Shown here: positions 26,381 to 48,338 of the stretch, one piece after another
How the letters are laid out: the number at the start of each line of letters is the position of its first letter
Numbering within the stretch: the first letter of the stretch is position 1
NCBI GenBank assembly: GCA_030018455.1
Contig: JASEFU010000003.1
Coordinates: 186,001 to 250,000, forward strand
Origin: Dehalococcoidia bacterium
GTDB lineage: Bacteria; Chloroflexota; Dehalococcoidia; DSTF01; JALHUB01
Length of the DNA: 64,000 nucleotides
Reading direction: 5' to 3'
Translations under genes and position numbers: made by a program
Notes under the pieces: model-generated
Database searches by the model: none
Told to the model about the DNA's origin: nothing
The model's input: only the letters and a program-made list of their open reading frames with translations

Positions 26381-27364
26381 CTAAGCCTTCAGCTTCTTGC
26401 AGGCCTCCAGCAGCGCCGGCATGACCTTCTTGTAGTCGTCGACGATGCCGAACCGCGACGACTTGAAGACTATGGCTTCCGGGTCCTTGTTGATGGCGAC
26501 GATGGTCTTCGCGCCGCTGCAGCCCGCCATGTGCTGGCTGGCGCCGGAGATGCCGACGGCGAAGTAGAGCGTCGGCCCGACGATCTTCCCCGTCAGCCCG
26601 ATCTGCTCGGAAACGGGGCGCCACCCATTGTCGCAGGCGGCGCGGGTAGCTCCTACGGCTCCTCCCAGCACCTTCGCCAGTTCTTCGAGAATCGCGAACC
26701 CCTCGGCGCTGCCTATGCCGCGCCCGCCGGCCACGATTACCTCCGCATCCTCCAGCCGGATCCCCTCTTCGGCCACTTCCTCATGGGCGACGATCTTGTC
26801 GCGGATCGCGCTTGCGTCCAGGCCGGCGTCCACCTTCGTAACCTGGCCCTGACGCGAGTCATCGCGGGGAAGAGGGTCCTGCGCCTTCGAGCGGATGGTC
26901 GCCAGAACGGGGGATGTGTTGAACGAGTGGATGGCGCGCGCGTTCCCGCCATAGCAGGGGCGCTCCACCATCACCTTGCCGTCCTGCGCCATGACGTTCA
27001 GGCAGTCCATCGCCGCCGTGCTTCCGAGGCGGAAAGCAAGACGGGGGATCAGATCACGCCCCACGTCTGTCTGCCCGCCGAGCACCGCGGCCGGGTCGGC
27101 CTGGGCCACGACCTTCTGCATCGCCGCTGTATAGCCGTCGTTGCTGTACTTCTCGAGCAGCGGGTCGTCGACCACGTACACCTGGTCGGCGCCGTGCGCT
27201 ATCAGGTCCTTGGCCAGCCCTTCAACGCCCGAGCCCAGGAGGGCCGCCTGGACCGGCTGCCCCATCTGGTCGGCGACGCGACGCGCGGCCCCCAGCACCT
27301 CGGTCGTGATCGGCGCGACAGAGCCGCCGCTTGTTTCGGCCACAACCATTATTCCGTTTGCCAT
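26381..27364 (-). CDS. etfA: Electron transfer flavoprotein alpha subunit
   Basis: 327-aa FAD-binding subunit. The C-terminal signature is clear: a [11 protein letters not shown] motif and [28 protein letters not shown], which contacts FAD. With EtfB it takes electrons from acyl-CoA dehydrogenases. ATG at 27364 with GGAG eight bases upstream, 32 bases after etfB. The membrane Fe-S oxidoreductase gene just upstream is the probable electron acceptor. Confidence 0.95.
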
Positions 27365-27396
27365 AGCTCACGCTCCTCGCTTTCTATTGACAAGGG

Positions 27397-28206
27397 CTAG
27401 AGGATCTTCTCTTCGCGCAGCCGCTGGGCCAGCTTCTGGGCCGTCTCCTCGGGCGTCTCACCCTCGATGACCTCGCACTCGACCTCGCTGACCGGCTGGA
27501 ACAGACGCTCAAGGTTGAGTCTCACTGCTTGTCTGCCCACCTGCGAGGCGTCCAGACCCAGGTCCGCGGCCGTCCACGTCGTGACCTGCTTTCTCGCCGC
27601 CTGCATTATCTGCTGCAGCTTGGGGTATCGCGGTTCGCCCAGCTCGTTGCTGATGGTGACGGCGGCGGGAAGAGGCGCCTCGATGGTGTCATACCCTTCC
27701 AGGAGCACCCGCTCGACGGCGATCTTGCCGTCCTTGACAGTGACGGACTTGGCGAGGGTGACGCTGGGGATCCCCAGCATTTCCGCCACGCCTGAACCGG
27801 TGGTGCCCGCGTCCCAGTCGGTTGCCTGGCGGCCGAACAGCACGAGGTCGTACTCGCCGATCTTCTCGATCGCCTTGGCGAGCGCGAGGGCGGTAGTGTA
27901 GCTGTCGCCGTTCTCGAACGCGTCGTCGCACAGGAGAACGCCCTCGTCGGCGCCCATGGCCAGGCCGTGCTTGATCGCGTCGCGCGCCGATGCCGGTCCC
28001 ATGCTGATGATCGTGATCTTCCCATCGCCCAGGGCGTCCTTTATGCGCAGCGCCGCCTCGACGGCAATGCCGTCGAACTGGCTGACCACCTGGGCGACTC
28101 CTCCAGCAGGTATGACCCTCTTCGCCGCCTCATCTACCTTAAAGGCCGATGCCGGCGCTTCCGGGTCTGGCACCTGCTTCACGCAGACAATCATGTTCAG
28201 TGCCAT
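27397..28206 (-). CDS. etfB: Electron transfer flavoprotein beta subunit
   Basis: 269-aa partner of EtfA. Opens IVCVKQVPDPE, contains MGADEGVLLCDD and the signature LFGRQATDWDAGTTG and LPAAVTISNELGEPRYP used to recognise EtfB. Carries AMP in the classic type. ATG at 28206 with AAGGAGG six bases upstream. A short palindrome and a possible promoter lie between it and the upstream Fe-S oxidoreductase gene. Confidence 0.95.
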   Translation of the reverse strand: MALNMIVCVKQVPDPEAPASAFKVDEAAKRVIPAGGVAQVVSQFDGIAVEAALRIKDALGDGKITIISMGPASARDAIKHGLAMGADEGVLLCDDAFENGDSYTTALALAKAIEKIGEYDLVLFGRQATDWDAGTTGSGVAEMLGIPSVTLAKSVTVKDGKIAVERVLLEGYDTIEAPLPAAVTISNELGEPRYPKLQQIMQAARKQVTTWTAADLGLDASQVGRQAVRLNLERLFQPVSEVECEVIEGETPEETAQKLAQRLREEKIL

Positions 28207-28261
28207 GAACTACCTCCTTGGCTGTAATCGCGGGTCACTCTCAGGATCGATGCCGACATCA

Positions 28262-28291
28262 GTTTTACGGGTTTAGCGCGTAAAAGGTCAA
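28262..28291 (-). promoter_or_regulatory. Possible promoter with palindrome before etfB
   Basis: Minus-strand TTGACC (28291-28286) contains the stop codon of the upstream gene; TAAAAC (28267-28262) is 18 bases on. Between them lies the inverted repeat TTTTACG/CGTAAAA (28285-28279 with 28269-28263), placed like an operator. Confidence 0.45.
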
Positions 28292-30399
28292 GGGTTTGTC
28301 TCTACCTCTTCACCCTCAGCCGGCGCCTGCTCGCGGGGTTCTTCCAGCCACACCGAGTCCTTCTTTGACTTCGTCGACGCCTCCAGCAGCTCGACGATGT
28401 CGAGGGCGCGCATGCGCTTCTCCTCGTCCGGCTCCAGCGCCGGGATGCCGTCCTCGAACATCTGGATGCAGAACGGACAAGCCGTCGCCACAACCGTCGC
28501 GCCCGTTTTCATCGCTTCCTCGGTGCGCACGTGGTTGATGTGCGGCCCTTTGCTCTCCTCCACCCACATGTGGCCGCCGCCCGCGCCGCAGCAGAACGTC
28601 GTCTTTCGCGACCGCTCCATCTCGACAACCTGCGCCCCGGGAAGGCTCCTGAGCACCCGGCGCGGCTCATCGATGATTTCGTTGTGACGGGCGAGGTAGC
28701 AGGAATCGTGGTAGACGATACGCTCCGCGACCTCCGCTTCCATCTTGAGCTTCCCCTCCTTCAGAAGCCGCGCCAGGAGCTCGCTATGGTGCACCACCTC
28801 GAAGCGGCCGTCGAATTGGGGGTACTCGTTCCGCATCATGTTGTAGCCGTGCGGGCAGGCCGTCACTATCTTCTTGACGCCCTTCGAATTCATTGTCTCG
28901 ATCGCCTGCTGGGCCTGCATCTGGAAGAGGTATTCGTTGCCCAGACGGCGCGCCGGGTCGCCGCAGCACGGCTCCTCTTCGCCCAGCACGCCGAAGCTCA
29001 CGCCCGCGCGTATGAGGAGCCGCGCCAGCGCCTGCGTAATGGGGATGTTGCGATCGGAGAGGGCGCCGGAGCAGCCCACCCACAGCAGGTACTCCTGGCT
29101 GCCGTCGAACAGGGGCACCTCCATGCCCTCCATCCAGTCGGTGCGCGTCCACGTAGTCCCCCGCCAGGGGTGGCCGCGCTGCTCGATCTGCATGAGCGTC
29201 GCCTGCGCCGTCTCCGGCATCTGCGCTTCGTCCATTACCAGGTAGCGTCGCACGCCGATGATCTCCGGCACGTGCTCGATCATCACCGGGCACCAGTACT
29301 GGCACGACCCGCAGGTCACGCAGTCCCATATCGACTCGAAGCCCATCGTGTCGATGGGCCGCGGCGGCTCCCCGCCGTTGCGCTTCACGGACGGTCGCAG
29401 CGTCAGGACGGAAAGCAGCGTCGGCGTGTTGGCGAGCAGGGCGACGCGGCCCGCGTGCTCGATCTCCTTCGGCGAGAGTTCCTTCTCCGTCAGGTACGCC
29501 GGGCAGTTCGACTGGCAGCGGCCGCACTCGGTGCAAGTGTAGAAGTCGAGGAGCTGCTTCCACGTGAAGTCCGTCACCCTGCCCACGCCGAAGGTCGCCC
29601 CCTCCTCCGCCTTCTCCATCATCGTCTCGATGTCGATCGGCTTCAGGACGCCGGTGCGCTCCATGTCGTGGAAGAAGACGTTGAACGCGACAGTGAGGAC
29701 GTGCGAATGCTTAGAGTAGGGCAGATAGCAGAGGAATGCGAAGAGTATCGTCAGGTGGCTGAACCAGGCGAAGGTGTGCAGTCCCTCCGAGGCGCCCTCC
29801 CCCAGACCCACCGCGTCCCAGAAGTTCGCGAGGCCGAACGCCGCGAACGAGAAGTAGTCCTCGCTTCCGCGCTCCAGCGATATCTCGAGGCTGTTGCCCA
29901 GGATATCGGTCACCATCAGCAGAAAGATGAGGCTCAAGATCGTCCACGCGTCGCGGTTGAGGGTAATGCGCGGCGGCTTGATGAACATGCGCTGGTAGGC
30001 CGCCATGCCGATACCGACGATCACCAGTATGTTGAAGAGGTCCATAACGGGCCGGAATCCGGTGTAAACGTCGCCGAGGAGGCTTTGCAGGCTCAGGTCC
30101 TCATGGACGCCGTCGAGGAGGAGGTTGAGGCTTCGCACGAGGAGGACGAGAAAGCCCCAGAAGATGAGTACGTGAAGTATTCCGGAGTACCAGTACTGCC
30201 GCCGGAAAAACTTCGACTGCGCGATCATGATCAGGAAGAAATCGCGCACGCGCTGCGGCAGGTGGTCAAAACGCGCCTCCGGTTTCGACTGCAGGAACGG
30301 AATGAGACGCGTGATGACGGTCAGAACGAAGAACGCGCCGAAGCCGAGGATGATCAAATAGAAAAAGATGCTTCCGGGAAGCTCGTTCGACGGAGCCAC
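28288..30399 (-). CDS. Membrane Fe-S oxidoreductase, probable EtfAB:menaquinone oxidoreductase
   Basis: 703 aa in two halves. Residues 1-250 hold six or so membrane helices of the nitrate-reductase-gamma (heme b) type with His in helices (GILHVLIFWG, HTFAWFSHL). Then come two 4Fe-4S motifs (CTECGRCQSNCPA; CVTCGSCQYWCPV) and two CCG domains (CCGDPARR; CCGAGGGHMW). This build is known for the EMO proteins that pass electrons from EtfAB to menaquinone in fatty-acid oxidisers. GTG start with GGAGG six bases upstream. Directly followed by etfB and etfA, supporting that role. Confidence 0.88.
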   Translation of the reverse strand: MAPSNELPGSIFFYLIILGFGAFFVLTVITRLIPFLQSKPEARFDHLPQRVRDFFLIMIAQSKFFRRQYWYSGILHVLIFWGFLVLLVRSLNLLLDGVHEDLSLQSLLGDVYTGFRPVMDLFNILVIVGIGMAAYQRMFIKPPRITLNRDAWTILSLIFLLMVTDILGNSLEISLERGSEDYFSFAAFGLANFWDAVGLGEGASEGLHTFAWFSHLTILFAFLCYLPYSKHSHVLTVAFNVFFHDMERTGVLKPIDIETMMEKAEEGATFGVGRVTDFTWKQLLDFYTCTECGRCQSNCPAYLTEKELSPKEIEHAGRVALLANTPTLLSVLTLRPSVKRNGGEPPRPIDTMGFESIWDCVTCGSCQYWCPVMIEHVPEIIGVRRYLVMDEAQMPETAQATLMQIEQRGHPWRGTTWTRTDWMEGMEVPLFDGSQEYLLWVGCSGALSDRNIPITQALARLLIRAGVSFGVLGEEEPCCGDPARRLGNEYLFQMQAQQAIETMNSKGVKKIVTACPHGYNMMRNEYPQFDGRFEVVHHSELLARLLKEGKLKMEAEVAERIVYHDSCYLARHNEIIDEPRRVLRSLPGAQVVEMERSRKTTFCCGAGGGHMWVEESKGPHINHVRTEEAMKTGATVVATACPFCIQMFEDGIPALEPDEEKRMRALDIVELLEASTKSKKDSVWLEEPREQAPAEGEEVETNP

Positions 30400-30529: not shown

Positions 30530-32086
30530 CTACGCAGGCCGGCCGTATGTCTTTCGCAGTTCCGTCTTCAGCACCTTGCCCAGCGGGTTGCGCGGCAGTT
30601 CGTCCACGAACGCCACCACGCTCGGCGCCTTGAAGCTGGCGAGACGGCCCTTGCAGTACTGTATCACCTCCTCTTCCGTCATCTTTTCGCCCGGCTGGAG
30701 CACCAGCAGCGCCATCACCTTCTCTCCCCACTCGACGTCGGGGACGCCGATGACCGCCGCTTCCGCGACCTTCGGGTGCTCCTCCAGGCAGCTCTCGATC
30801 TCGCCCGGCGATATGTTCTCGCCGCCGCGGATGATCAGGTCCTTCGTCCGTCCGGTGATGAACAGGTAGCTGTCTTCGTCCAGGTAGCCGACGTCGCCCG
30901 TGTGCAGCCAGCCGTCCACGATCGCCTCCGCCGTCGCTTCTGCCTGGCCGTGGTATTCGCGCATGATACGGGCGCCGCGAACGCAGATCTCGCCCTCTTC
31001 GCCGGGGCCGAGCACGTTGCCCTTGGGGTCCATGATCGCGATCTCCACGTCGTCCATCGGCCGTCCGACGGAGCGCAGCCGCCGCAGCTTCTTCTCCCGC
31101 TCCTCGTCCGTCCCCTCGATGCGGTGGTCCTCCGGCCCCAGGTACGTCATCGTCGAAGTGCTCTCCGTCTGGCCGTAGGCATTCATCAGGCCGCACTTGA
31201 ACACATCGACGGCCCTGCGCACCACCTCGTAGGGCATGGGCGCGGCCCCGTACGTAATGAGCTGAAGCGAACTGAGGTCGTACTTTTCGAAGTCCGGGTG
31301 CTCCATGATGCGCTTGAGCATCGTGGGCACGACGAAGCTGTGCGTGACCTTCTCCTTCTGCACCGCTTCCAGCCAGAGGCCGGGCTCGAACTGGGGCAGG
31401 ATGACGAGCTTCCGCCCGCCCCAGATCGACGACATGATCGCCGTGAGGCCGGCAACGTGGTATACGGGCACCGACAGCAGCGTGACCTCCAGCGGCTGCT
31501 CGGGGTCGGCGGGGCTCATGGTGTTGACCACGTAGACGGAGAGGGTGAGGTAAGTCAGGATGACACCTTTGGGGAGGGCTGTCGTTCCGCTCGTGTACAT
31601 GAGCACGGTGGCGTCGCCCTCTTCGATGGGCACAAACACCTCCTCGTCGCTGCCCGACGCCAGGAGATCATCGTAGGCAGGCATGCCGTCGACGCGGCCG
31701 TCGATGCAGACGAGGTCTTTCACCCCCGGCGTCTCCGGCTGCAGCGAGCGCGCGAGGTCGACATAACGTTCGCCGACGAAGAGCAGCGACGCTTCGGAGT
31801 TGTTGAGCATGTGCACCGTCTCTTCGCGCTTGGCCCGATAGTTCAGCGGCACGAAGACGGCGCCGATCTTGGCGCAGGCGTAGTACGTTTCGACGTACTG
31901 CGGGCTGTTGAGGGCCATCACCGCGACCTTCGTGCCCTGCTGCACCCCCCGCGATAGCAGCGCGTTCGCCAGGCGGTTAACGCGCGTCGCCATCTCCATG
32001 TAGGTGATGCGCTGCTCGCCGCACACGAGCGCCTCCCTATCGGGTACCACCGCCGAGCTTATTTGCAGGAACTCCGCCGTGTTCAT
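30530..32086 (-). CDS. AMP-dependent acyl-CoA synthetase/ligase
   Basis: 518-aa ANL-superfamily enzyme that activates a carboxylic acid with ATP and CoA. Core motifs are intact: P-loop YTSGTTALPKG, YGQTEST, GWLHTGDVGYLDE and the C-terminal catalytic lysine PRNPLGKVLK. Substrate class (fatty, aromatic or other) cannot be read from sequence. ATG at 32086 with GAGGG five bases upstream is preferred over a GTG four codons earlier. Last gene of a minus-strand unit with two enoyl-CoA hydratases and two small proteins. Confidence 0.92.
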   Translation of the reverse strand: MNTAEFLQISSAVVPDREALVCGEQRITYMEMATRVNRLANALLSRGVQQGTKVAVMALNSPQYVETYYACAKIGAVFVPLNYRAKREETVHMLNNSEASLLFVGERYVDLARSLQPETPGVKDLVCIDGRVDGMPAYDDLLASGSDEEVFVPIEEGDATVLMYTSGTTALPKGVILTYLTLSVYVVNTMSPADPEQPLEVTLLSVPVYHVAGLTAIMSSIWGGRKLVILPQFEPGLWLEAVQKEKVTHSFVVPTMLKRIMEHPDFEKYDLSSLQLITYGAAPMPYEVVRRAVDVFKCGLMNAYGQTESTSTMTYLGPEDHRIEGTDEEREKKLRRLRSVGRPMDDVEIAIMDPKGNVLGPGEEGEICVRGARIMREYHGQAEATAEAIVDGWLHTGDVGYLDEDSYLFITGRTKDLIIRGGENISPGEIESCLEEHPKVAEAAVIGVPDVEWGEKVMALLVLQPGEKMTEEEVIQYCKGRLASFKAPSVVAFVDELPRNPLGKVLKTELRKTYGRPA

Positions 32087-32124
32087 TTCATCCCTCACAT
32101 TTCCTCAAACACCCGGTTGCCGCG

Positions 32125-32907
32125 TTATTCTCGAAAGCCGCTCGCCTGCTTTTCCCTGTACCGCCGGAGGCCCGCCGCCGCTTCGTCCGACGCCAGCGCC
32201 AGCGCCGCCAGACGCTCCTCGAGCGCCAGTCCCTCCGCGAGCGGCAGCTCGATGCCCCTGGTGAGCGCCTCCTTCGCGTAGGCGAGGGCGAGCGCCGGCC
32301 TGGATATCAGCCGTTCAGCCCATTCCTCCGCCTCGGCGTAGAGACGCTCTCTCGGCACCACCCTGTTCACCAGCCCCAGCCGCACCGCCTCCGCCGCGTC
32401 GATCTCGCGGCCGGAGAGGACCATGTCAATCGCTACGCCGAAGGGCACTGTACGCGCCAGGAGCTGCGTGCCGCCCGCCGACGGTATGTAGCCGAGGCCC
32501 ACCTCCGGCAGGCCGAAGCGCGCGTCCTCGCTGGCGATGCGGACGTCGCAGCACATGCTCATCTCGCAGCCGGCGCCCAGCGCGTAGCCGTGGATGGCGG
32601 CGATGAGCGGCTTGTCGATGTCGAGCATGAGCTGCCAGAGGTCGCGCTCGCGCCGCGCGCGCCGCGCCTCGACGTACGAAGGGGAGGTGCCGAACTCGCT
32701 GATGTCGGCGCCCGAGGAGAAGGCGCGTTCGCCGGCGCCCTTGATTATGAGCGCCCCGACCGTGGGGTCGTCGCGCACCGCCTGCATCGCCGTCCACATC
32801 TCGTCGCGCATCCGCAAGTTGAGCGCGTTGAGCACCTGCGGACGGTTCAGCGTGAGCCAGGCGATGCGCCCGCGCTTTTCGTAGAGTATAGTCTCGAACC
32901 CGTCCAA
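32125..32907 (-). CDS. Enoyl-CoA hydratase/isomerase (crotonase family), copy 1
   Basis: 260 aa with both crotonase glutamates, Glu115 (GCEMSMCCD) and Glu135 (GLPEVGLGYIPSAGGTQ), so a hydratase reaction is likely. The oxyanion-hole GADIS segment is at 66-70. Only a TTG start (32907) is available, 15 bases after the stop of the small gene upstream. It is clearly diverged from copy 2 at 33426-34205, so the two are not a recent duplication. Substrate unknown. Confidence 0.9.
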   Translation of the reverse strand: MDGFETILYEKRGRIAWLTLNRPQVLNALNLRMRDEMWTAMQAVRDDPTVGALIIKGAGERAFSSGADISEFGTSPSYVEARRARRERDLWQLMLDIDKPLIAAIHGYALGAGCEMSMCCDVRIASEDARFGLPEVGLGYIPSAGGTQLLARTVPFGVAIDMVLSGREIDAAEAVRLGLVNRVVPRERLYAEAEEWAERLISRPALALAYAKEALTRGIELPLAEGLALEERLAALALASDEAAAGLRRYREKQASGFRE

Positions 32908-32922
32908 GGGGCCGCCGATCGA

Positions 32923-33162
32923 CTAGCGCCAGTCCGGCCTGCGGATCTGGCTGCGCTCTTTGCTCGCCAGGGCCTTAGCCAGGTCCTGGTTGATCTTCTC
33001 CGCCAGCAGCCGCATCCCCTCGCGCGACGGCTGCATCTCCTGGCTGCGCCAGAGGCGTATCCGCGCCCGGTCCTCGTCGGATATCTGCGTCTCTTCCAGC
33101 ATCCGCGAGAGGACGTGCGACATCAGCGCCCACGCCTCGTCTACTTCAAGCTCTACCTTCAT
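32923..33162 (-). CDS. Small protein of unknown function, paralogue B
   Basis: 79 aa, soluble, mainly helical, with opening KVELEVDEAWALMSHVLSRM and WRSQE near residue 40. It aligns without gaps to the neighbouring 84-aa protein (18 identities in the first 39 residues). ATG at 33162 with GGAG nine bases upstream, 3 bases after the stop of its paralogue. Both lie between two enoyl-CoA hydratase genes. No family recognised; a subunit or regulator of the hydratases is only a guess. Confidence 0.75.
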   Translation of the reverse strand: MKVELEVDEAWALMSHVLSRMLEETQISDEDRARIRLWRSQEMQPSREGMRLLAEKINQDLAKALASKERSQIRRPDWR

Positions 33163-33165
33163 CCC

Positions 33166-33420
33166 CTATGTCTCCTTGGACGACACGTACCAGCCCTTGC
33201 GCCGCAGCAATCGCCGCGTCTTCTCGTCGAGGGTGTTGCCAAGGGCCTCGTTCATGCCGATGGCGAGGTCGCTCATCTCCGCCGTCCCTTCCGCCCGGTC
33301 GGTCCGCCAGCGCTTTATCTCCCTGCGGGCCTCCGCCGAAAGCTCGACGTTGTCCAGCACCTGCGAGACGACAAGCGTCATGATTGACCACGCTTCGTCC
33401 GGTTCCAGTATCACCTGCAT
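33166..33420 (-). CDS. Small protein of unknown function, paralogue A
   Basis: 84 aa, opening QVILEPDEAWSIMTLVVSQV and RWRTDR near residue 40; paralogue of the gene just downstream. The ATG at 33420 aligns exactly with the paralogue's first residue; a GTG at 33429 that overlaps the preceding stop would add three residues. Starts 5 bases after the enoyl-CoA hydratase copy 2 stop. No known domain was recognised. Confidence 0.75.
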   Translation of the reverse strand: MQVILEPDEAWSIMTLVVSQVLDNVELSAEARREIKRWRTDRAEGTAEMSDLAIGMNEALGNTLDEKTRRLLRRKGWYVSSKET

Positions 33421-33425
33421 CCAGT

Positions 33426-34205
33426 TCACCTGCCCTTGAAGTTGGGGTCTCTTTTTTCGAGGAAGGCGCGCACGCCCTCCGCCCTGTCTTCCGTCGTCTG
33501 GAGGATAATCGTGAGGTCGGTCTCGAAGCGGAGCGCCTGCTCGAGGGGCATCTCGGCGCCCCGCAGCACCGCTTCCTTGGCGTAGCGGACCGCTATCGGC
33601 CCCCGGCGCGCGATCTCCTCCGCCGTCGCCTCCGCCTCCGCCATCAGCCGCGGGCGCGGCGTCACCTTGCTCACCAGACCGATCCGCAGCGCCTCCGCCG
33701 CGTCCACGACCTCACCCGTGAGCACCATCTCGAGCGCCTTCGCCCGCCCGACGACGCGGGGCAGCCGCTGCGTTCCGCCCGCCATGGGGAGGAGCCCAAA
33801 GCCCGTCTCCGGCAGTCCGAAGCGGGCGTTGTCGCTGCAGATCCGCACGTCGCAGGCGAGCGCAAGCTCCAGGCCGGCGCTGAGAGCAACGCCGTTGACC
33901 GCGGCGATCACCGGGCGGCTGAGACTGTTCAGGAACGAGAATGAGCCGCCGAGGACGCGCTCCCGCCGCGCCCACTCCAGCGGCGTCTCGTCGCCGATCC
34001 GCGAGACGTCCCAGCCGGAGCAGAAGACGTCGCCTTCACCCGTGACGATGGCGACGTAGCAGTCGGGGTCGTCGTTTATCGCGGCGGCAGCGGAGGCCAG
34101 TTCGGAGAGCGCTTGCTGATTGAGGACGTTCCCCTCAGCGGGGCGGCAGAGGCTGACGTAAGCGAGATGCCCCTTCTTTTCCAGCGTGAGGGTCCGGTAC
34201 GTCAT
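33426..34205 (-). CDS. Enoyl-CoA hydratase/isomerase (crotonase family), copy 2
   Basis: 259 aa. Crotonase catalytic glutamates are Glu113 (AGLELALACD) and Glu133 (GLPETGFGLLPMAGGTQ); CSGWDVS holds the oxyanion-hole region. ATG at 34205 with AAAAGG five bases upstream; the frame stays open further but lacks a better start. First gene of the unit ECH2-smallA-smallB-ECH1-acyl-CoA synthetase, driven by a promoter at 34251-34279 that is divergent from the CoA-transferase promoter. Confidence 0.91.
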   Translation of the reverse strand: MTYRTLTLEKKGHLAYVSLCRPAEGNVLNQQALSELASAAAAINDDPDCYVAIVTGEGDVFCSGWDVSRIGDETPLEWARRERVLGGSFSFLNSLSRPVIAAVNGVALSAGLELALACDVRICSDNARFGLPETGFGLLPMAGGTQRLPRVVGRAKALEMVLTGEVVDAAEALRIGLVSKVTPRPRLMAEAEATAEEIARRGPIAVRYAKEAVLRGAEMPLEQALRFETDLTIILQTTEDRAEGVRAFLEKRDPNFKGR

Positions 34206-34250
34206 GGTGGCCTTTTCGGCGCGCGGTGCCGCTGTGGTGTGAGCGTGGGG

Positions 34251-34279
34251 ATCGTAGCAACCAGCCCAAATAGAGTCAA
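34251..34279 (-). promoter_or_regulatory. Promoter of the enoyl-CoA hydratase unit
   Basis: Minus-strand TTGACT (34279-34274), 17-bp spacer, TACGAT (34256-34251) with an extended-10 TGC. Divergent from the plus-strand promoter at 34326-34354, so both units may share control. Confidence 0.7.
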
Positions 34280-34325
34280 CAAAGGGGACTCCGACCACGC
34301 TTGGCGGGCCGCCTCCTGCCTGCGC

Positions 34326-34354
34326 TTGCCCTACGCCGGTCCCGCCTGTATCAT
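34326..34354 (+). promoter_or_regulatory. Promoter of the CoA-transferase unit
   Basis: TTGCCC (34326-34331), 17-bp spacer, TATCAT (34349-34354), about 50 bases before the first CoA-transferase ATG. Confidence 0.6.
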
Positions 34355-34404
34355 GCCAGCCGAGGCTATCGCCTCCAGACCGGACGAAGAGAGTCAGCGT
34401 TCTC

Positions 34405-35634
34405 ATGCCGGACCCAGCCCTCTCAGACCTGCGCGTAATCGAAGTCGCCCAGGGCATCGCGGGGCCTTACTGCGGCAAGCTGCTCGCGTCGTACGGCGCC
34501 GATGTCATCAAGGTCGAGCCGCCGGGCGCAGGCGACCTCTCGCGGCGCTTCGGCCCGTTCCCGGAAGACATCCCCCACCTCGAAAAAAGCGGCACCTTCC
34601 TCCACCTGAACACAAGCAAGCGGAGCGTCACGCTTGACATAACCGGCGAAACGGGCCGACTGGCATTCCGACGCCTCCTCCAGAACGCCGACATCCTCAT
34701 CGAGAACTGCGCGCCGGGACAGATGGCGCAGTGGGGGCTCGGCTACGACGACCTCAAGGCCGATCTCCCTCGCCTCATCTACGTCTCGATCAGCCCCTTC
34801 GGCCAGACAGGCCCCTACCGCGACTACAAGGGCAACAGCCTGACGGCGATGGCCACCAGCGGCGTCATGTACGTCACCGGCGCCCCCGACCGCGAGCCGC
34901 TGACTACCGGCGGCGAGCCCGCGGAATACCTCGCCGGCATGTACGCCTGGCTCGGCGCCCTCGCCGCTCTCGCCTATCGCGACCGCGAGAACGCGGGGCA
35001 GCAGGTAGACGTCTCGCTCATGGAAGCGGCCGCCTCGGCCGACGAGTACAGCGCCGCCATGTACGCCTTCATGGGCGCCATCCGCCGCCGCTACTACTCT
35101 CGCCACCTCTTCAGCTACCCGTCCGACATCTACGCCTGCAAGGACGGCCACGTCGTCGTCAGCCCCGCCGCTCAGGGCTTCCCGTCGCCGACCGCGACCG
35201 ACCAGGGCGCCTCGCCCATGTCCCTGCTCCTCGGCGACGTCGAGCTCGACCAGAACGACCTCTTCCGCGACCGCTGGGCCCGCTGGTTCCGCTGGCAGGA
35301 GTTCGAGAGGCTTCTTCAGCCATACCTTGAGAGCAATTCCGCCGACGAAATCGTTTCGTTCGCGCAGGCGCTGCGCATGCCTTTCGCCCACGTCTTCAAC
35401 GCCGCCCAACTCCTCGAAAACGAGCACCTCAGGGAGCGCGGCTTCTTCCAGGAGATCGATCACCCGCAGGCAGGCCGTCTCAAGTACACCGGCGACCTGT
35501 TCAAGGCCGATCGCATGAAGGCGCCGCTGCGGCGCGCCCCGCTCCTCGGCGAGCATAACGAGGAGATACTTGGGGGAGAGCTCGGCTACACGAAGAAAGA
35601 CCTCGAAGTGCTCCGCGGTCAGGGAGTGATCTAG
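34405..35634 (+). CDS. Class III (CaiB/BaiF) CoA-transferase, pair 1 first gene
   Basis: 409-aa full-length family III CoA-transferase. The N-terminal Rossmann part has RVIEVAQGIAGPYCGKLLASYGADVIKVEPP and the SPFGQTGPY loop; the acid expected to form the acyl-enzyme anhydride is Glu in VDVSLMEAAAS (Asp in formyl-CoA transferase). The middle small domain (YACKDGHVVVS...) and C-terminal PLLGEHNEEIL link are complete. It transfers CoA between carboxylic acids; donor and acceptor unknown. Two bases separate its stop from the next transferase gene, suggesting a heterodimer as in BbsEF. Confidence 0.9.
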   Translation: MPDPALSDLRVIEVAQGIAGPYCGKLLASYGADVIKVEPPGAGDLSRRFGPFPEDIPHLEKSGTFLHLNTSKRSVTLDITGETGRLAFRRLLQNADILIENCAPGQMAQWGLGYDDLKADLPRLIYVSISPFGQTGPYRDYKGNSLTAMATSGVMYVTGAPDREPLTTGGEPAEYLAGMYAWLGALAALAYRDRENAGQQVDVSLMEAAASADEYSAAMYAFMGAIRRRYYSRHLFSYPSDIYACKDGHVVVSPAAQGFPSPTATDQGASPMSLLLGDVELDQNDLFRDRWARWFRWQEFERLLQPYLESNSADEIVSFAQALRMPFAHVFNAAQLLENEHLRERGFFQEIDHPQAGRLKYTGDLFKADRMKAPLRRAPLLGEHNEEILGGELGYTKKDLEVLRGQGVI

Positions 35635-35636
35635 AC

Positions 35637-37025
35637 ATGGCGAAGCTGCCCCTCGAAGGAGTCCGCGTCCTCGACTTCACCCAAGTGTGGGCGGGGCCCG
35701 CCTGCACCTCCATCCTCGCCGCTCTCGGGGCCTACGTGATCAAGATCGAAGGCATGAGCCGCCTCGACATCTCCCACATCCTGCTGACCGCCGAAAACCA
35801 GTTCACCGCCGAGCTCTGGAACCGCGGCCCCTACTACCACTACCGCAACCCCGGCAAGCGCGGCATCACCCTCGACCTGCTTCATCCCGACGGCATCAAC
35901 CTCGTCAAGCGCCTCGTGCCTGCCTGCGATGTCGTTATCGAAGCCTTCTCCCCGCGCGTCATGGGCAACTTCGGCCTCACCTATGAAGTGCTGCGCGAAC
36001 TCCGGCCCGACCTCATCATGATGTCGATGTCCGGCTACGGCCAGACCGGCCCCTACAGCGACTACGGGGCCTACGGCATGGGGCTGGAGCCCGCCTCCGG
36101 CATCGCCTCCATCACCGGCTACGCGGACAGCGGCCCCACGCGCACGGGCGTCTCCTTCACCGATCCCATCGCCGGGATAGCCGGAGCCGCGGCCGTCCTG
36201 ATGGCGCTGCGCCACCGCGACCGCACGGGCGAGGGCCAGTACATCGACATGTCGCAGCAGGAAACGGCGATCCCCTTCATCGGCGCCGCCCTCATGGAGT
36301 ACCAGATGACGGGCCGCATCCCTTGCCCCCGCGGCAATCGCAGCTCCGTCGCCGCTCCTCAGGGCTGCTACCGCTGCAAAGGCGACGATGACTGGCTGGT
36401 GATCTCGATCAGCGATGACGAGGAATGGGCCTCGTTTTGCGAGGCGGTCGGACATGCCGAGTGGCGCGACGACGAGCGCTTCGCCACCATCATCGCCCGC
36501 AACCGCAACCACGACATCCTCGACGCCCTCATCGAGGACTGGACGCGCGGGCAGGACCACATCGAGGCCTTCCACCTGCTTCAGAAGGCGGGAGTCAAGG
36601 CCGCCCCCGTGCTCAACGGCAAGGAGATGCTCCTCGATCCCCACCTGCGGGAACGCCACTACTACGACCTGCTGGACCATCCCACCGATCTCGGGCCGCG
36701 GCCCGTCGCCCGCACCCTCATCGCCAGGTTCGACCGCATGGACCCGAAGCCCGACCGGGCGGCCCCCAGTATGGGCGAGCACAACGCCGAGGTCCTGCAA
36801 GGGCTGGCGGGAGTCTCCGACGAAGAGCTGGCAGACCTGGAAGCGCGCCAGATCATCGGCACGGCGCCCATACTCGACATACCGCCGGACGCCGACCTCA
36901 TGGAGCTGCTGGCGCAATTGCTCTTCCCGCTCGACCGCATGATCGAGCAGGGTTCCATCCGCGCCGTCGAGCCGGACTACCGCCGGCAGCTCGGCCTCGA
37001 CGAGGGTGCACATACGGGGAAGTAG
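35637..37025 (+). CDS. Class III (CaiB/BaiF) CoA-transferase, pair 1 second gene
   Basis: 462-aa, full-length with a C-terminal extension after the usual end (DLEARQIIGTAP...). Conserved pieces: RVLDFTQVWAGP, SGYGQTGPYSDYG, the acyl-carrying acid as Glu in YIDMSQQETAI, the small domain with GCYRCKGDDDWLVIS, and SMGEHNAEVLQG. ATG at 35637 two bases after the partner's stop. The extension could be an interface with the first subunit. Downstream begins an interspersed hairpin repeat. Confidence 0.9.
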   Translation: MAKLPLEGVRVLDFTQVWAGPACTSILAALGAYVIKIEGMSRLDISHILLTAENQFTAELWNRGPYYHYRNPGKRGITLDLLHPDGINLVKRLVPACDVVIEAFSPRVMGNFGLTYEVLRELRPDLIMMSMSGYGQTGPYSDYGAYGMGLEPASGIASITGYADSGPTRTGVSFTDPIAGIAGAAAVLMALRHRDRTGEGQYIDMSQQETAIPFIGAALMEYQMTGRIPCPRGNRSSVAAPQGCYRCKGDDDWLVISISDDEEWASFCEAVGHAEWRDDERFATIIARNRNHDILDALIEDWTRGQDHIEAFHLLQKAGVKAAPVLNGKEMLLDPHLRERHYYDLLDHPTDLGPRPVARTLIARFDRMDPKPDRAAPSMGEHNAEVLQGLAGVSDEELADLEARQIIGTAPILDIPPDADLMELLAQLLFPLDRMIEQGSIRAVEPDYRRQLGLDEGAHTGK

Positions 37026-37302: not shown

Positions 37303-38061
37303 ATGGACCTAGGACTCGCCGGCAAGGCCGCCATAGTCACCGGCTCCAGCCGCGGTATCGGGCGCGCCATCGCCCTCGCCCTCGCCGGCGAGGGCTGCGA
37401 TGTTGTCCTCTGCGCCCGCGGCGAAGCGGCGCTCCGAGATGCGGAGGCTGAGGTCGGCAGGCGCGGCGTGCGGACGCTCGCCGTCGCCGTCGATGTGACG
37501 CAGCGCGACGGCGTCGAGACGCTTGTCCGGCGCGCCGTCGACGCCTTCGGCCGCGTCGACGTGCTGGTCAACAACGTCGGCGGCTCATTCGCCGGCGATG
37601 AAGATGACGCCTGGGATGCCAGCTATCGCGCCAACCTCCTGGCGGCTGTCCGCGCGACCCGACTCGTCGCGCCCCACATGCGGCGGCAGGGCGGCGGCAG
37701 CATCATCCACGTCGCGTCGATATGGGGGCGCGAGTCCGGCGGAGCGCTCACCTATAACGCCCTCAAGGCGGCGCTCATCAGCCACGCCAAGAACACGGCC
37801 CTCGCCCTTGCCCCCGACAACATACGCGTGAACTCCGTCGCACCCGGCTCCATCGCCTTTCCCGGCGGCTCGTGGCAGCGCCGGATCGACGCCGACCCAG
37901 AGGCGATGGCGCGCTTCGTCGAGGCGAACATACCGATGGGACGCTTCGGTCGGCCGGAGGAAGTGGCGGCGGTCGTCGCTTTCCTCGCCTCCGACAGGGC
38001 GAGCTGGGTGACGGGCGCTTGCATCAACGTGGACGGCGGCCAGTCCCGCTCCAACATCTGA
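37303..38061 (+). CDS. Short-chain dehydrogenase/reductase 1
   Basis: 252-aa classical SDR: TGSSRGIG cofactor motif (13-20), VNNVGG in place of NNAG, catalytic Ser in HVASIWGRESGG and Tyr-Asn-Ala-Leu-Lys (YNALK). A likely oxidoreductase of hydroxyacyl-CoA or a related alcohol/ketone, given the surrounding CoA-transferase genes. ATG at 37303 with AGGAGG upstream. Sits between the two CoA-transferase pairs and is followed after 10 bases by the third transferase gene. Confidence 0.9.
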   Translation: MDLGLAGKAAIVTGSSRGIGRAIALALAGEGCDVVLCARGEAALRDAEAEVGRRGVRTLAVAVDVTQRDGVETLVRRAVDAFGRVDVLVNNVGGSFAGDEDDAWDASYRANLLAAVRATRLVAPHMRRQGGGSIIHVASIWGRESGGALTYNALKAALISHAKNTALALAPDNIRVNSVAPGSIAFPGGSWQRRIDADPEAMARFVEANIPMGRFGRPEEVAAVVAFLASDRASWVTGACINVDGGQSRSNI

Positions 38062-38071
38062 GCGCCGCGCA

Positions 38072-38938
38072 ATGGCTGACCAACCGCTGGAAGGGCTGCT
38101 CGCAATCGACCTCGCGGGAGGCGTCGCAGGCGCGTACTGCTGCTCGCTCCTCGCCGCCGCGGGCGCCGAAGTCATCAAAGTGGAGCCGCCGCGCAAAGGC
38201 CACCCCCTCCGATACCGCGCCCCCTTCCTGAAGGACATCCCCGCGCCGGAGAATAGCGCCCTCTTCCTCTTCCTGAATGCGGGCAAGAAGAGCGTAACAC
38301 TCGACTGCGAAGCGGAAGACGGGCGCGCCCTGCTCCGCGCCCTTGTCGACAAGGCGGACGCCCTCGTCGAAGAGGCGCCTCCCGGCTATCTCGCCTCACT
38401 CGGCCTGACCTACGACGACCTGCGCCGCACGAACCCCCGGCTTGTCATCACCTCCGTCACATCCCACGGACCGTGGGATTCCCGCGCCGCTTACCGCCTT
38501 GACAACTTGACGCTGCTTGCCGCCGCCGGACGGCTCAACCCGGATGTCGGCTGCGGAGCGGACGAGGCCGCGGGCCACGCCGCTGAGTACGAGGCGGGGC
38601 TGAACGCCTTCGCCGCCACCCTCGCCGGTCTTTTGGGCGTCGCCGTCTCCGAGCGCGGCCAGCGCGTCGGGGTCGCGGGCGTCGAGTGCCTCGCGGCGAC
38701 AAGCGTCCTACCGAAACTGTCGCCGCGCCCCGCCGTCGCGGCCGCCGTCCCGTCCGTGGAGACCGAGCACCCCCTCGCGGGCCGCCTGGCCTATCCACCG
38801 CTGCCCTTCGCGCTCGAGGGCGTGGACTACCGGCAGCCGGCGCCCCTTCTCGGCGGCGACAACGCGGCGGTCTACGGCGAGATGCTCGGCTTGACTCCTG
38901 ACGAGATAGCCTCGCTCGCAGCGAAAGAGGTGATCTGA
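38072..38938 (+). CDS. CaiB/BaiF CoA-transferase lacking the small domain, pair 2 first gene
   Basis: 288 aa rather than about 400. The N-terminal part is complete (LLAIDLAGGVAGAYCCSLLA, EVIKVEPP, SVTSHGPWDS) and continues to the region of the active-site acid, here VGVAGVECLAATS. It then skips directly to the C-terminal link (PLLGGDNAAVYGEMLGLTPDE), so the middle small domain of about 150 residues is missing. No stop or frameshift is involved; both ends of the gene are intact. The adjacent gene 38941-39963 keeps that domain but lacks another part, suggesting a specialised heterodimer. Confidence 0.82.
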   Translation: MADQPLEGLLAIDLAGGVAGAYCCSLLAAAGAEVIKVEPPRKGHPLRYRAPFLKDIPAPENSALFLFLNAGKKSVTLDCEAEDGRALLRALVDKADALVEEAPPGYLASLGLTYDDLRRTNPRLVITSVTSHGPWDSRAAYRLDNLTLLAAAGRLNPDVGCGADEAAGHAAEYEAGLNAFAATLAGLLGVAVSERGQRVGVAGVECLAATSVLPKLSPRPAVAAAVPSVETEHPLAGRLAYPPLPFALEGVDYRQPAPLLGGDNAAVYGEMLGLTPDEIASLAAKEVI

Positions 38939-38940
38939 GC

Positions 38941-39963
38941 ATGAGCCGTCTACCCCTCGCCGCCGTCCGCGTCGTCGAGCTCGATGCCGGCCTTGCCGGC
39001 GCCCGCTGCGCGCGCATTCTCGGCGACCTGGGCGCGGAGGTGATCAAGGTCGAGCGGCCCTCGTCCACGCCACCGACCGACGCCCTCCGCTTCGACCTCG
39101 ACCGCAACAAGCTCGGCTGCGCTATCGACGCCGCGGACGAACGCGGACGCGCGATGCTCCTGCGGCTGGCGCGGCTGAGCCAGGTCGCCGTCGTCGCGTT
39201 TGACGGCGCGGGGCCATCTGCGGACCAGCTGCGTGAAGCAAAGCCCGACCTCATCATCGCGTCGCTGCCGCCGTCCGACGGGCCGCCCGCGCTCGAAGAC
39301 GTCACGCTGGGGACGGCAGCGGCGGCAGGCGTCCTGGTAGCGCTCGTGAAGCACCGGCGCACGGGAGAAAGCAGCCTGGTGGCGCTGCGCGGGGACGCCC
39401 TTGCGGCGTCGTTTCGGGGCGAGCGCGCCCTCCGCGCGCCGGCGCCGCCTTCGGCTTCAGACGCTCCCTGCGGCTGCTATTCGTGCGGGAGGGGGACCAT
39501 CGCCGTCTCCGTCTCGTCCGACGAGGAGTTCGCCGCCCTCTGCCGCGCGATCGGCCGGGAAGAGCTGGTGCGCGACCCGCGCCTTTCCGACGCCCCGTCT
39601 CGGAGCGAGAACGCGGCGGAGCTCGGGCGCTATATCGAGGCGTGGACTGCCAATCGCAGCGCGGAAGAGGCGGCGCAAGCGCTCCAGGAAGCGGGGGTGA
39701 GTGCCTCGCCCGTACTCACGCCCGGGGACATCCAGCGTGACCCCCACCTGCGACGGGGCGGCTTCTTCGAACTGATCGCCCACCCGGAGGGCGAGCGCGA
39801 AGTCCCACGCCTCCCCTGGCGCTTCCGCGGCACGTCCGTCCACACGCGCCTGCCCGCGCCCCTGCCCGGCGAGCACAACGCCTACGTCTTCCGCGACCTG
39901 CTGCGGCTGTCAGATGCCGAGATATCGGAGCTGGCCGGGGCGGGAGTTATCGGAAAAGTCTAG
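38941..39963 (+). CDS. CaiB/BaiF CoA-transferase lacking the glycine loop region, pair 2 second gene
   Basis: 340 aa. The N-terminus (VRVVELDAGLAGARCARILGD, EVIKVERP) and the small domain (CGCYSCGRGTIAVSVSSDEEF) and C-terminal link (PLPGEHNAYVF) are present, but the stretch that normally carries SxFGxTGPY and the following substrate loop is absent (about 60-70 residues). The likely active-site acid is Asp in VALRGDALAAS, the canonical residue. Three bases separate its start from the stop of the partner gene, so the two are almost certainly made together. Confidence 0.82.
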   Translation: MSRLPLAAVRVVELDAGLAGARCARILGDLGAEVIKVERPSSTPPTDALRFDLDRNKLGCAIDAADERGRAMLLRLARLSQVAVVAFDGAGPSADQLREAKPDLIIASLPPSDGPPALEDVTLGTAAAAGVLVALVKHRRTGESSLVALRGDALAASFRGERALRAPAPPSASDAPCGCYSCGRGTIAVSVSSDEEFAALCRAIGREELVRDPRLSDAPSRSENAAELGRYIEAWTANRSAEEAAQALQEAGVSASPVLTPGDIQRDPHLRRGGFFELIAHPEGEREVPRLPWRFRGTSVHTRLPAPLPGEHNAYVFRDLLRLSDAEISELAGAGVIGKV

Positions 39964-43568: not shown

Positions 43569-44837
43569 TTGAAACTCGATCTTCCTTACGGCCGAGGAGT
43601 GCTGGGTGTCGAGCTGCCCGACGACACCCATGTCCTCCTGCCGTCCCGGTCGACCGCTCTCGCCGTGCCCGAAGAGGCGGTGCGCCTGGCGCTGCGACGG
43701 CCCCTGAACTCGCCTCCTCTGCGCGACCTGCTCTCGCCCCATAACAGCGTCGCAATCGTCATCAGCGACATCACCCGCCCCGTGCCCAACCGGGTTCTCC
43801 TGCCACCCGTCCTTGAGACGATTGCCGCGGCCGGCGTTCCCCGCGAGCGCGTTGTCGTCATCAACGGAACGGGGATGCACCGCGCCAATACCCGCGAGGA
43901 GCTAGCGTCGATGCTGGGCGAGGACGTCGTGCGCGAATACCGCATCGTCAACCACGATGCCCGCGACCCCTCGACGCTCGGCCGCATCGAAGTCGACGGC
44001 GAGGACTTCTGGCTCAACCGCGAGTACCTGGAGGCGGGCGTAAAGGTGCTCACCGGCTTCGTGGAGCCGCACATCTTCGCCGGCTACTCCGGCGGCGGCA
44101 AGGCGGCGCTTCCCGGCCTCGCGGGCGCCGAGACGGTCCTGAAGAACCACGGCGTCGACATGCTCTCGCACCCCCGCGCGACCTGGTGCTGCGCCGAGGG
44201 CAACCCCATCTTCGAGCAGGTCCGCCGCGTCGCTCTCGCCACCGCGCCCGCTTTCATCGTCAACGTGACGCTGAACGAGCGGAAGGAGATAACCGGCGTC
44301 TTCGCGGGAGAGCTTGCTGCTGCGCACGATGCAGCTATAGCGCAGGCCGCCGCGCAGGCGCTGACCACGATCCCGCACCTGTACGACGTCGTCGTGGCGA
44401 CGAACATGGGCTGGCCCGCCGACATCAACCTCTACCAGTCGATGAAAGCGATGTCGGTGGCGGCGCAGGCCGTGCGGCCGGGCGGCGCCATCGTCCTCGC
44501 CGCCGAGTGCGCCGAAGGGCTGGGGAACGACGACTTCTCGCGCCTGCTGACGAGCGAGCGGTCATTCCCCGCTCTGATGGAGAAGATACGGCGGCCGGGC
44601 TTCGCGGCCGACGAACAGTGGGGCGTGCAGTGCATCGCCATGGTCGCGGAGAAGGCCGACATCTACGTGCACTCCTGTCTACCGCGAGATGTTATCGAGG
44701 GGCAGGCGCACCTGCGTCACAGTGAGGACGTTACCGAGACCGTTAGATCGCTTCTGAGGGCGAAGAACGGGGGACGTAAGCCCAGCGTCGCCGCCCTACC
44801 CCACGGCCAGCTTACCGTCCCCCGTCTGCAGCGTTAG
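43569..44837 (+). CDS. larA: LarA-like nickel-pincer racemase/epimerase family protein
   Basis: 422 aa with the LarA catalytic residues: Arg70 in SDITRPVPN, His104 in NGTGMHR, His168 in EPHIFAGYSGGGK and Lys178 in the same motif (SGGRK in many homologues). Family members use a nickel-pincer nucleotide cofactor made by LarB/C/E to racemise or epimerise 2-hydroxyacids. None of those maturation genes is in the window. TTG start at 43569 with AAGGG five bases upstream. Divergent from the SDR/hydrolase unit, so substrate may be linked to the same pathway; lactate itself is not implied. Confidence 0.82.
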   Translation: MKLDLPYGRGVLGVELPDDTHVLLPSRSTALAVPEEAVRLALRRPLNSPPLRDLLSPHNSVAIVISDITRPVPNRVLLPPVLETIAAAGVPRERVVVINGTGMHRANTREELASMLGEDVVREYRIVNHDARDPSTLGRIEVDGEDFWLNREYLEAGVKVLTGFVEPHIFAGYSGGGKAALPGLAGAETVLKNHGVDMLSHPRATWCCAEGNPIFEQVRRVALATAPAFIVNVTLNERKEITGVFAGELAAAHDAAIAQAAAQALTTIPHLYDVVVATNMGWPADINLYQSMKAMSVAAQAVRPGGAIVLAAECAEGLGNDDFSRLLTSERSFPALMEKIRRPGFAADEQWGVQCIAMVAEKADIYVHSCLPRDVIEGQAHLRHSEDVTETVRSLLRAKNGGRKPSVAALPHGQLTVPRLQR

Positions 44838-46060: not shown

Positions 46061-46270
46061 CTCCCCGTGTCCTTTGCGCCAGTGTACCGTTGCCGAGTTT
46101 CCATCTGCCGGACGGCTCGCCTGCTGATTCCTTACGCTTTCCCTACGCTCGCTGGGGCGATCTGTCAACGGACAGTAAACAGATAAGCGGACGCCGCTCG
46201 ACTCTGCCCGAAACGCCGGTTAACCCATGGCGCCGATTGGCTGCAGAATTTCATGGTGCAGCCGGGAAGG

Positions 46271-47461
46271 TTACCGGTGGCGCTGCTCATGCGCCGCCGG
46301 CGCGCAAGCCTGCCTGCCGGCCAGGCGGGCCAGATACGTCCCCCTGCCGATGCGGCGTTTGGCCGCAAGCAACTTCCGCACAACCATTCCCGTCGCCAGC
46401 AGCGAGATGCCGAGCGCCGCCAGCAGCGTTGCCTCTGCGTTCGAGCCGCCTGCGCCGCCCTCGCCCGCCTGCCCTGTCGCCGGCAGCGTCACCGAGCCCT
46501 CACCGGTCTCGCCCGGCTGTTCGTCCCCGCCCGCGCCGGTACCGTCGGGCGGGCCGCACTCGCCAAACCAGCCGCTGTTCATCGGCGCCACCGCGTACGC
46601 CCTCTCGACGCCGCCCACCGTCGCCTTCACCACTGCCGCCGCCGTTACGCTGCCGCAATCGGCATCTGCTTTGAGCCCGTAAGACGCCCTGAAGACGTCG
46701 ATCGATTCGCCAGGGGCAAGGGCGCCAAACGAGGAGAGGTCCCAGGAGGCAAGGCCGGCGGCGGGGACGACGCTGCTGGCTGCCGGATCGGCCTCCGTCA
46801 GGGCGACCGGGCCGTCGTGGCGGACAGTCAGCAGGAGACCCGTCGCCTCGGACGCCGATGTGTTCTTCAGGGTTACGACGTAAATGGCCTGCCGGCCGAC
46901 GCCCCAGAACCGCCGGAACGTCGAAAGCTCTTTCGGCGGGTCGGCGGCCGACGGGTCGCCGACGAAGACCAGCGGGGTCGATGCCGCCACTACACCCTCA
47001 TGCGAAACCACCCGCAGTTCCGACCTCGATTCCCCTTCCGCCCGCATGTTCATCAGCAGCACGGCCCTCGATTCCACCGTCTGATGAGGTGGGATCCCTT
47101 CCCCCTCGAACGATGTTGGCGAGGCCGCGACCGGCAGCAGCTCTCCGTTGCGCCGCACTTCGATGAAGAACGTCTCGACGGCCGGGCCGGCGGTGGCGGG
47201 CACGATTTCAACCCGACCGGCGGGCCGCGCCTCGTCCGACTCATTGATGTAGCGCGTAACACACTCGACCACCGTCCACTCGTTAGGCCGCATTACGTTG
47301 GGGGAGCACTCATGCTCGAGCCTCAGGCCGGAGGCGGTCGCTTCCGGGGCGGGCGTTGGAGTCGCCGCCTCCGGCGTCTGAGCGATGATGAGCCGCGGGC
47401 CGGTGCCAAGAACGAGCGCGACCAGCGTTGCCGTCAGCAAACAGGCCGCTCTTGCTGCCAT
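46271..47461 (-). CDS. Secreted protein with LPATG cell-wall sorting signal
   Basis: 396 aa. Signal peptide (1-27), then beta-rich conserved-repeat-like domains without recognised enzymatic motif. Near the C-terminus are LPATG, a Gly-rich spacer, a hydrophobic segment (TLLAALGISLLATGMVV) and basic residues (RKLLAAKRR): the order of a sortase substrate. About 26 residues follow the basic patch, more than usual. ATG at 47461 with GGAGG seven bases upstream. No sortase gene is in the window. May be a surface adhesin or S-layer-type protein. Confidence 0.72.
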   Translation of the reverse strand: MAARAACLLTATLVALVLGTGPRLIIAQTPEAATPTPAPEATASGLRLEHECSPNVMRPNEWTVVECVTRYINESDEARPAGRVEIVPATAGPAVETFFIEVRRNGELLPVAASPTSFEGEGIPPHQTVESRAVLLMNMRAEGESRSELRVVSHEGVVAASTPLVFVGDPSAADPPKELSTFRRFWGVGRQAIYVVTLKNTSASEATGLLLTVRHDGPVALTEADPAASSVVPAAGLASWDLSSFGALAPGESIDVFRASYGLKADADCGSVTAAAVVKATVGGVERAYAVAPMNSGWFGECGPPDGTGAGGDEQPGETGEGSVTLPATGQAGEGGAGGSNAEATLLAALGISLLATGMVVRKLLAAKRRIGRGTYLARLAGRQACAPAAHEQRHR

Positions 47462-47594
47462 CACGCCGCCTCCCGCTGGAACCCCGTTCCCGATTTCGCA
47501 CCTGCTACAACGCTCGAAAGCGAAATTAGTTAACGAGCGTGTAGAGCTTTTTCGCCCCCATTTCGTCATTTCTCTTTCTCGCCGCGAAAACCCG

Positions 47595-48338
47595 TTATCC
47601 GTCGCCAAAGCGCTCCCAGTTGGGGAACAGTCCCCGCGCTTCCAGCGCCGGCGTTAGTAGCTCGTCGGCCAGAACGTACGCGTACATGACGCCCGTCAGC
47701 AGCCAGCGTCCCTCCTCGAAGGCCCAGGACGTGTTGAGGGCCACGCGAAGCGGCCCCTCGCCGGCGATGTCGGTGGGGCGCTCGATGATGGCGGTGACGA
47801 TGGCGTCGTACCGGCCGCCGCCGACGTTCAGCGCGTACACCTGGGGCTCGCCGCCGCCGAACGCATCGCTTTCGTCAGGCAGCGTTCCGCTGAAGAAGGC
47901 GTCGAGGCCGCGCACCGCCGTCTCGACGGGCACGGTCGCCCCCTCGGAGCGCCAAGCCGACACCTCGAAGCCGTCGAACTCCTGTCCGACCGATTCGCAG
48001 GCCGGCCCGCCGGGGCCCCGCGGCTCCACGTCCTCCTGCCGGCAGACGATGTGCCTCGTCCGCATCCTCTCGCGCAGGAAATCGACCGGCTGCGTCTTTA
48101 TTGCTGTATCCAGGTCCGCCGCGAAGGCGCGGAATTCGGCGTCCTGGGGCTGCTCGCCGGAGACGCTCGTGGGCGACGCCTCGGGTGGAGCCGTCGCCGT
48201 CGCGCCGGCGGGCGGCGTCGGTGAGGGTGTCGACTCCTCGTCCTCCGCTCCCCCGCAACTCACCGCGAACAACAAGAACAGGACGACCAGCGCGACAGCG
48301 CGGGCCACGAAGAAAGCGCTTCCAGCGATGGCTCTCAT
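47595..48338 (-). CDS. Lipoprotein of unknown function
   Basis: 247 aa with a lipobox (LLFAVSC, Cys28) and a Pro/Thr/Ser-rich linker (about 32-62), then a folded domain of about 180 residues containing two cysteines and YDAIVTAIIERP. ATG at 48338 with GGAGG ten bases upstream. No family recognised. The gene follows 133 bases before (in transcription order) the LPATG protein gene; both face outward, so a surface role is likely but unproven. Confidence 0.72.
   Translation of the reverse strand: MRAIAGSAFFVARAVALVVLFLLFAVSCGGAEDEESTPSPTPPAGATATAPPEASPTSVSGEQPQDAEFRAFAADLDTAIKTQPVDFLRERMRTRHIVCRQEDVEPRGPGGPACESVGQEFDGFEVSAWRSEGATVPVETAVRGLDAFFSGTLPDESDAFGGGEPQVYALNVGGGRYDAIVTAIIERPTDIAGEGPLRVALNTSWAFEEGRWLLTGVMYAYVLADELLTPALEARGLFPNWERFGDG

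Follow-up and report, generated by a model that had tools for sequence, protein, structure and literature searches.

Gene organization of the locus

Two short genes of the CaiB/BaiF family, CT1 and CT2, lie head to tail in the window, the whole 64,000-nucleotide stretch of DNA that was analyzed (Table 1). They are separated by 2 bases, with an AGGTGA upstream of the CT2 start, and neither has internal stops; the coordinates, adjacency, gap and open frames given by an earlier sequence-only reading were all recovered in the open reading frames of the plus strand. Both proteins belong to the Pfam family CoA_transf_3 (E = 3.6e-44 for CT1 and 1.6e-55 for CT2), above the curated cut-off in each case. 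CT1 is matched over positions 1-200 of the 366 profile positions only, and the match to CT2 is split into positions 1-119 and 156-366. The remaining CaiB genes of the window's own genome are matched by the profile from end to end, one of them as two pieces in one frame. Among 144 complete CaiB-type open reading frames from related loci, the intact ones of clearly less than usual length are three adjacent pairs, in the window and in the genomes G009 and G038, and one chimeric or broken frame in G283. The shortness of CT1 and CT2 is far beyond chance. A further CaiB A/B pair (G000, C1:184400-186864) has a B gene with a mid-gene insertion, seen as two Pfam stretches in one frame.

Table 1. Features at and around CT1 and CT2, numbered from the first letter of the window
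Feature	Position	Strand	Remarks
Two ETF subunits and CCG/4Fe-4S protein	26381..30399	-	Belong to the ligase/hydratase cluster common to G009 and G038
Acyl-CoA ligase and two enoyl-CoA hydratases	30530..34457	-	Cluster common to G009 and G038, beside their shrunken pairs
Full-length CaiB/BaiF A/B pair	34405..37025	+	409 + 462 aa; in the gene run of CT1-CT2, different orthogroup
SDR oxidoreductase	37303..38061	+	Directly upstream of CT1; in G211 (61%) and G012 (69%), the ortholog is upstream of a full-length A/B pair
CT1, A-type CaiB/BaiF subunit	38072..38938	+	288 aa; Rossmann domain alone, small domain deleted
CT1 Glu172 (AEYEAG)	38585..38587	+	At the catalytic-Asp column; alignment
CT1 junction	38699..38770	+	About 150 residues (linkers and small domain) absent relative to full-length A subunits; alignment with G012A, G211A and others
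CT2, B-type CaiB/BaiF subunit	38941..39963	+	340 aa; Rossmann and small domain, shortened pre-Asp loop
CT2 junction S108-E119	39262..39297	+	About 35 residues absent (helices/loops, beta5 to Asp); alignment
CT2 Asp120 (LEDVTLGTAAAA, LEDVTLGT)	39298..39300	+	Shares an alignment column with the catalytic Asp (SYGDP in full-length B subunits)
CT2 region without the GNxH loop of relatives	39424..39468	+	Alignment

The SDR gene that precedes CT1 has an ortholog directly before a full-length A/B pair in G211, where two more of the window's SDR genes are found again downstream, and a similar SDR-A-B arrangement is found in G012. This synteny indicates that CT1 and CT2 stand in the place of a full-length pair. 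Other genes of the window include a 271-aa protein without a Pfam match (25408-26226, minus strand), which is kept beside the ETF genes in G009 with 47% identity, and a nickel-dependent lactate-racemase-like gene of the LarA family (43569-44837, plus strand; Lar_N and LarA_C), whose score of 413 bits falls short of the 460 required by the NCBIfam equivalog cut-off. Two long open reading frames (46253-47533, plus strand, 426 aa; 47595-48338, minus strand, 247 aa) also have no Pfam match.

Missing segments and predicted structures

CaiB/BaiF proteins form interlocked dimers in which both domains are usually assumed to be necessary in both chains, and the family is very abundant in these bacteria, with mostly unknown substrates. 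CT1 is without the small domain, as the sequence-only reading had proposed, with about 150 residues of linkers and small domain gone, and the CoA_transf_3 match and the alignment with full-length A subunits agree on this. The same reading had described CT2 as keeping the small domain and losing a loop, which also holds, with about 35 residues gone between the SxxG motif and the Asp; full-length B subunits have 48 residues between their SMPxHG motif and the catalytic Asp. In addition, the GNxH loop motif, kept in full-length relatives of CT2, is lost. The catalytic Asp had been assigned to VALRGDALAAS, but this is the wrong residue, as the alignment rules it out and places D120 in the Asp column. 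This column holds Asp in 57 of the 58 B-side sequences, while the A-side (n = 58) is mixed (E 24, D 10, Q 9, Y 6, L 4, A 3 and G 2). Fragments of the missing small domain and loop were searched for in the window and in the G009 and G038 loci and were found only inside known CaiB genes.

AlphaFold predictions of the single chains, made from a 17-sequence alignment, reached a pLDDT of 82.9 and a pTM of 0.84 for CT1, with low confidence in the linker at the deletion junction (residues 213-224), and 85.1 and 0.76 for CT2. The top Foldseek matches of CT1 are class III CoA-transferases, including BbsEF (9fn0/9fol), and the closest solved relatives of CT2 are likewise class III CoA-transferases with BbsEF among them. 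In the models and these matches, a Rossmann large domain is built from the N- and C-terminal parts of the chain. A small domain is present in CT2, absent from CT1 and absent from both G009 proteins. In CT1-CT2, no catalytic Asp lies in an otherwise complete site; D120 of CT2 has neither the adjacent loop nor a partner small domain and CT1 carries E172.

Relationship to known CoA-transferases

BbsEF, the succinyl-CoA:(R)-benzylsuccinate CoA-transferase (PDB 9fn0, 9fol and 9fun), is among the best matches in sequence and fold. According to PDB titles and alignments, it consists, like CT1-CT2, of two paralogous CaiB/BaiF subunits, one of which carries the catalytic Asp (a PDB title names a D178-CoA adduct). 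CT1 and CT2 share with such heterodimers the adjacency of an A and a B paralogue, their placement in two separate clades and the Asp in B. They differ in length, with 288 and 340 aa against full-length two-domain subunits of about 400 aa; BbsE and BbsF have about 410 aa and both domains, whereas CT1 is without the small domain and CT2 without the pre-Asp loop. Formyl-CoA transferase, YfdW and YfdE have the same fold and Rossmann core, and YfdW is among the best PDB matches of CT1; unlike CT1-CT2, these enzymes are homodimers with two full sites and an Asp in every chain. An intramolecular class III transferase, used to assign segments to sites, has the Rossmann and small domains in common with the pair but is a full-length homodimer. 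Within the same class of bacteria, the full-length A/B pairs of G012, G211, G004, G008, G003 and G264 fall in related or orthologous clades, with SDR neighbors common to G012 and G211. In contrast to CT1-CT2, they have complete small domains, the 48-residue loop, an SYGDP-type Asp and GN motifs.

A tree built from 116 CaiB proteins places the short A genes in a single clade of 12 rows (SH-aLRT 100), together with full-length A subunits from G012, G016, G004, G007, G008, G003, G002, G264 and G140, and the short B genes are in a clade shared with many partners of those subunits. The window and G009 genes group together with a support of 97-98, and G038 is set apart in the free quick tree; forcing the three short genes into one clade gives a slightly better score and is not rejected (p-AU 0.675 and 0.52). 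The descent of CT1-CT2 from a full-length, BbsEF-like class III A/B heterodimer is supported by these sequence comparisons.

Reduced pairs in other genomes and selection

Shrunken homologous pairs occur in two other genomes, in line with the co-occurrence to which the sequence-only reading had pointed as a check. Full-length orthologous pairs are present in related genomes. G009, from another genus of the same family as the window, has a pair of 234 + 255 aa in which loops and small domains are lost from both proteins and both frames are open. Its contig follows the window's order: ETF, ETF, FeS protein, ligase, two hydratases, CT1, CT2 and a methyltransferase. The window's full-length pair and the SDR preceding CT1 are absent from this locus. 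The pair of G038, a genome from a different family of the class, measures 305 + 378 aa and is located 3 kb beyond an ETF/FeS/ligase/hydratase cluster like that of the window; of all the short genes, its CT2 has lost the least. Its CT1 has an Asp (ADYLAG) and an intact loop (SVTPYGLSGPY). Its CT2 has RAGSVMGT with the Asp lost, being the sole B-side sequence of the 58 without it, and keeps the small domain and GNRH.

These loci also bear on the idea that CT1 or CT2 is partnered with one chain from the full-length pair at 34405-37025, which would supply the missing small domain or loop. That pair does lie in the gene run of CT1-CT2, but its orthogroup is not that of CT1-CT2, and no full-length pair is found at the equivalent place in G009 or G038, which makes this arrangement highly improbable.

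Outside the family, G038 provided the only further reduced pair in searches that covered 294 and 393 genomes from the class and 400 from the phylum, all compared assemblies being draft genomes and few candidates being scored per genome; more such pairs may exist. A 247-aa open reading frame in G283 was rejected as a fourth short A gene, as its frame enters unrelated sequence. At this place (C141, locus L131, 3663-4403, minus strand), an A-type CaiB frame runs into unrelated stop-rich sequence, and it is a broken gene or an assembly chimera. A 695-aa frame in G088, considered as a fusion, proved to be a canonical full-length gene with an upstream open frame. No A-type relatives were found in viral contigs, and the 11 B-type loci from viral contigs served mainly as alignment rows. 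Among the papers that could be searched, none on truncated CaiB pairs was found.

CT1 and CT2 are under purifying selection that is weaker than on the neighboring genes; constraint is relaxed yet present. Their dN/dS values against G009 are 0.47 and 0.58, compared with 0.13-0.41 for neighbors; a full-length B gene has 0.17. These are rough values, as dS is near saturation. Such values, together with long branches and the progressive loss of segments in G009, would fit decaying pseudogenes that recently lost their function, are wearing away through in-frame deletions and have frames that stay open because stops are rare at such G+C; neutral sequence at 85% G+C indeed remains open in about 20% of simulations. 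However, the amino-acid identity to G009 is 48% for CT1 and 51% for CT2, whereas simulations of neutral evolution matched for third-position divergence gave 13-23%, usually with stops, and at most 0.31 in any run. Also, all six genes from the three genomes have open frames, and synteny is kept between families. Decay, already disfavored, is therefore improbable.

Composite active sites and possible function

In class III CoA-transferases, one subunit contributes its Rossmann domain to an active site and its partner contributes the small domain (PMC9196870, PMC3720670). The Asp comes from the Rossmann side, together with the beta5-alpha5 and alpha6-alpha7 loops, and in YfdE the small-domain subunit also provides the GNxH loop (PMC9196870, PMC3720670). 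By inference, the ancestral enzyme worked through the site between the B Rossmann domain and the A small domain, because the Asp is present in 57/58 B-side against 10/58 A-side sequences. The small domain missing from CT1 and the loop missing from CT2 are exactly the two walls of one site, that holding the Asp of CT2. The missing segments are not complementary for the remaining site, as both belong to the vanished one.

The sole site in the window with both walls is formed by the CT1 Rossmann domain and the CT2 small domain, where Glu172 takes the place of the nucleophile and GNxH is missing. A heterodimer with this one working site, using Glu172 in the window or Asp in G038 as nucleophile, is the main rival explanation for the window. 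It draws on the two walls kept by this site alone and on the perfect complementarity in G038, for which it is the better reading. For the window, it is unlikely, since the nucleophile position is occupied by Glu, GNxH is lost, the rest of that site is gone in G009, where the pair is still maintained, and the sequence context of the orthogroup points to B, not A, as the catalytic subunit. The single shared site per heterodimer that had been proposed from the window thus fits G038 exactly but not the window itself. With its Asp-bearing site dismantled, the rest carrying Glu and no GNxH, and G009 reduced further, no canonical site arises from the two halves. From the BbsEF-type interpretation, A/B descent and the co-occurrence of reduced pairs stand, whereas the sum of the window's halves into a canonical site does not.

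In the window, CT1-CT2 is most likely a variant of the BbsEF-type heterodimers that acts as a CoA-binding pseudoenzyme. It is considered, with moderate confidence, that the pair is a reduced heterodimer kept by selection as a CoA- or acyl-CoA-binding pseudoenzyme or accessory protein without classical CoA transfer. The pair would have arisen from a full-length heterodimer with a non-catalytic A and a B carrying the catalytic Asp, in which loss of the small domain from A and of the beta5-to-Asp loop from B removed the single Asp-bearing site. CT1 and CT2 would still associate as a heterodimer, their Rossmann halves would still bind CoA or acyl-CoA, and CoA transfer by the aspartyl-anhydride route would no longer take place. 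Such a complex would probably serve the neighboring acyl-CoA ligase/enoyl-CoA hydratase/SDR/ETF pathway.

The complete-looking site in G038 indicates that reduction as such does not end catalysis everywhere. A more tentative possibility is a stepwise course, in which one composite site was lost as a unit, catalysis moved to the other subunit (as in G038, with the Asp gone from B and present in A) and the second site was then lost (as in G009). The outcome would be a conserved heterodimer of Rossmann domains (234 + 255 aa) that has no small domains and has taken on a new function related to CoA. A natural series from full length through one site to no site, under selection in three genomes, would reveal which parts of the fold are dispensable, and it would serve as a minimal system in which to test half-of-sites catalysis and the evolution of pseudoenzymes. 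In the window, Glu172 together with the CT2 small domain might support residual chemistry, such as hydrolysis, isomerization or slow transfer.
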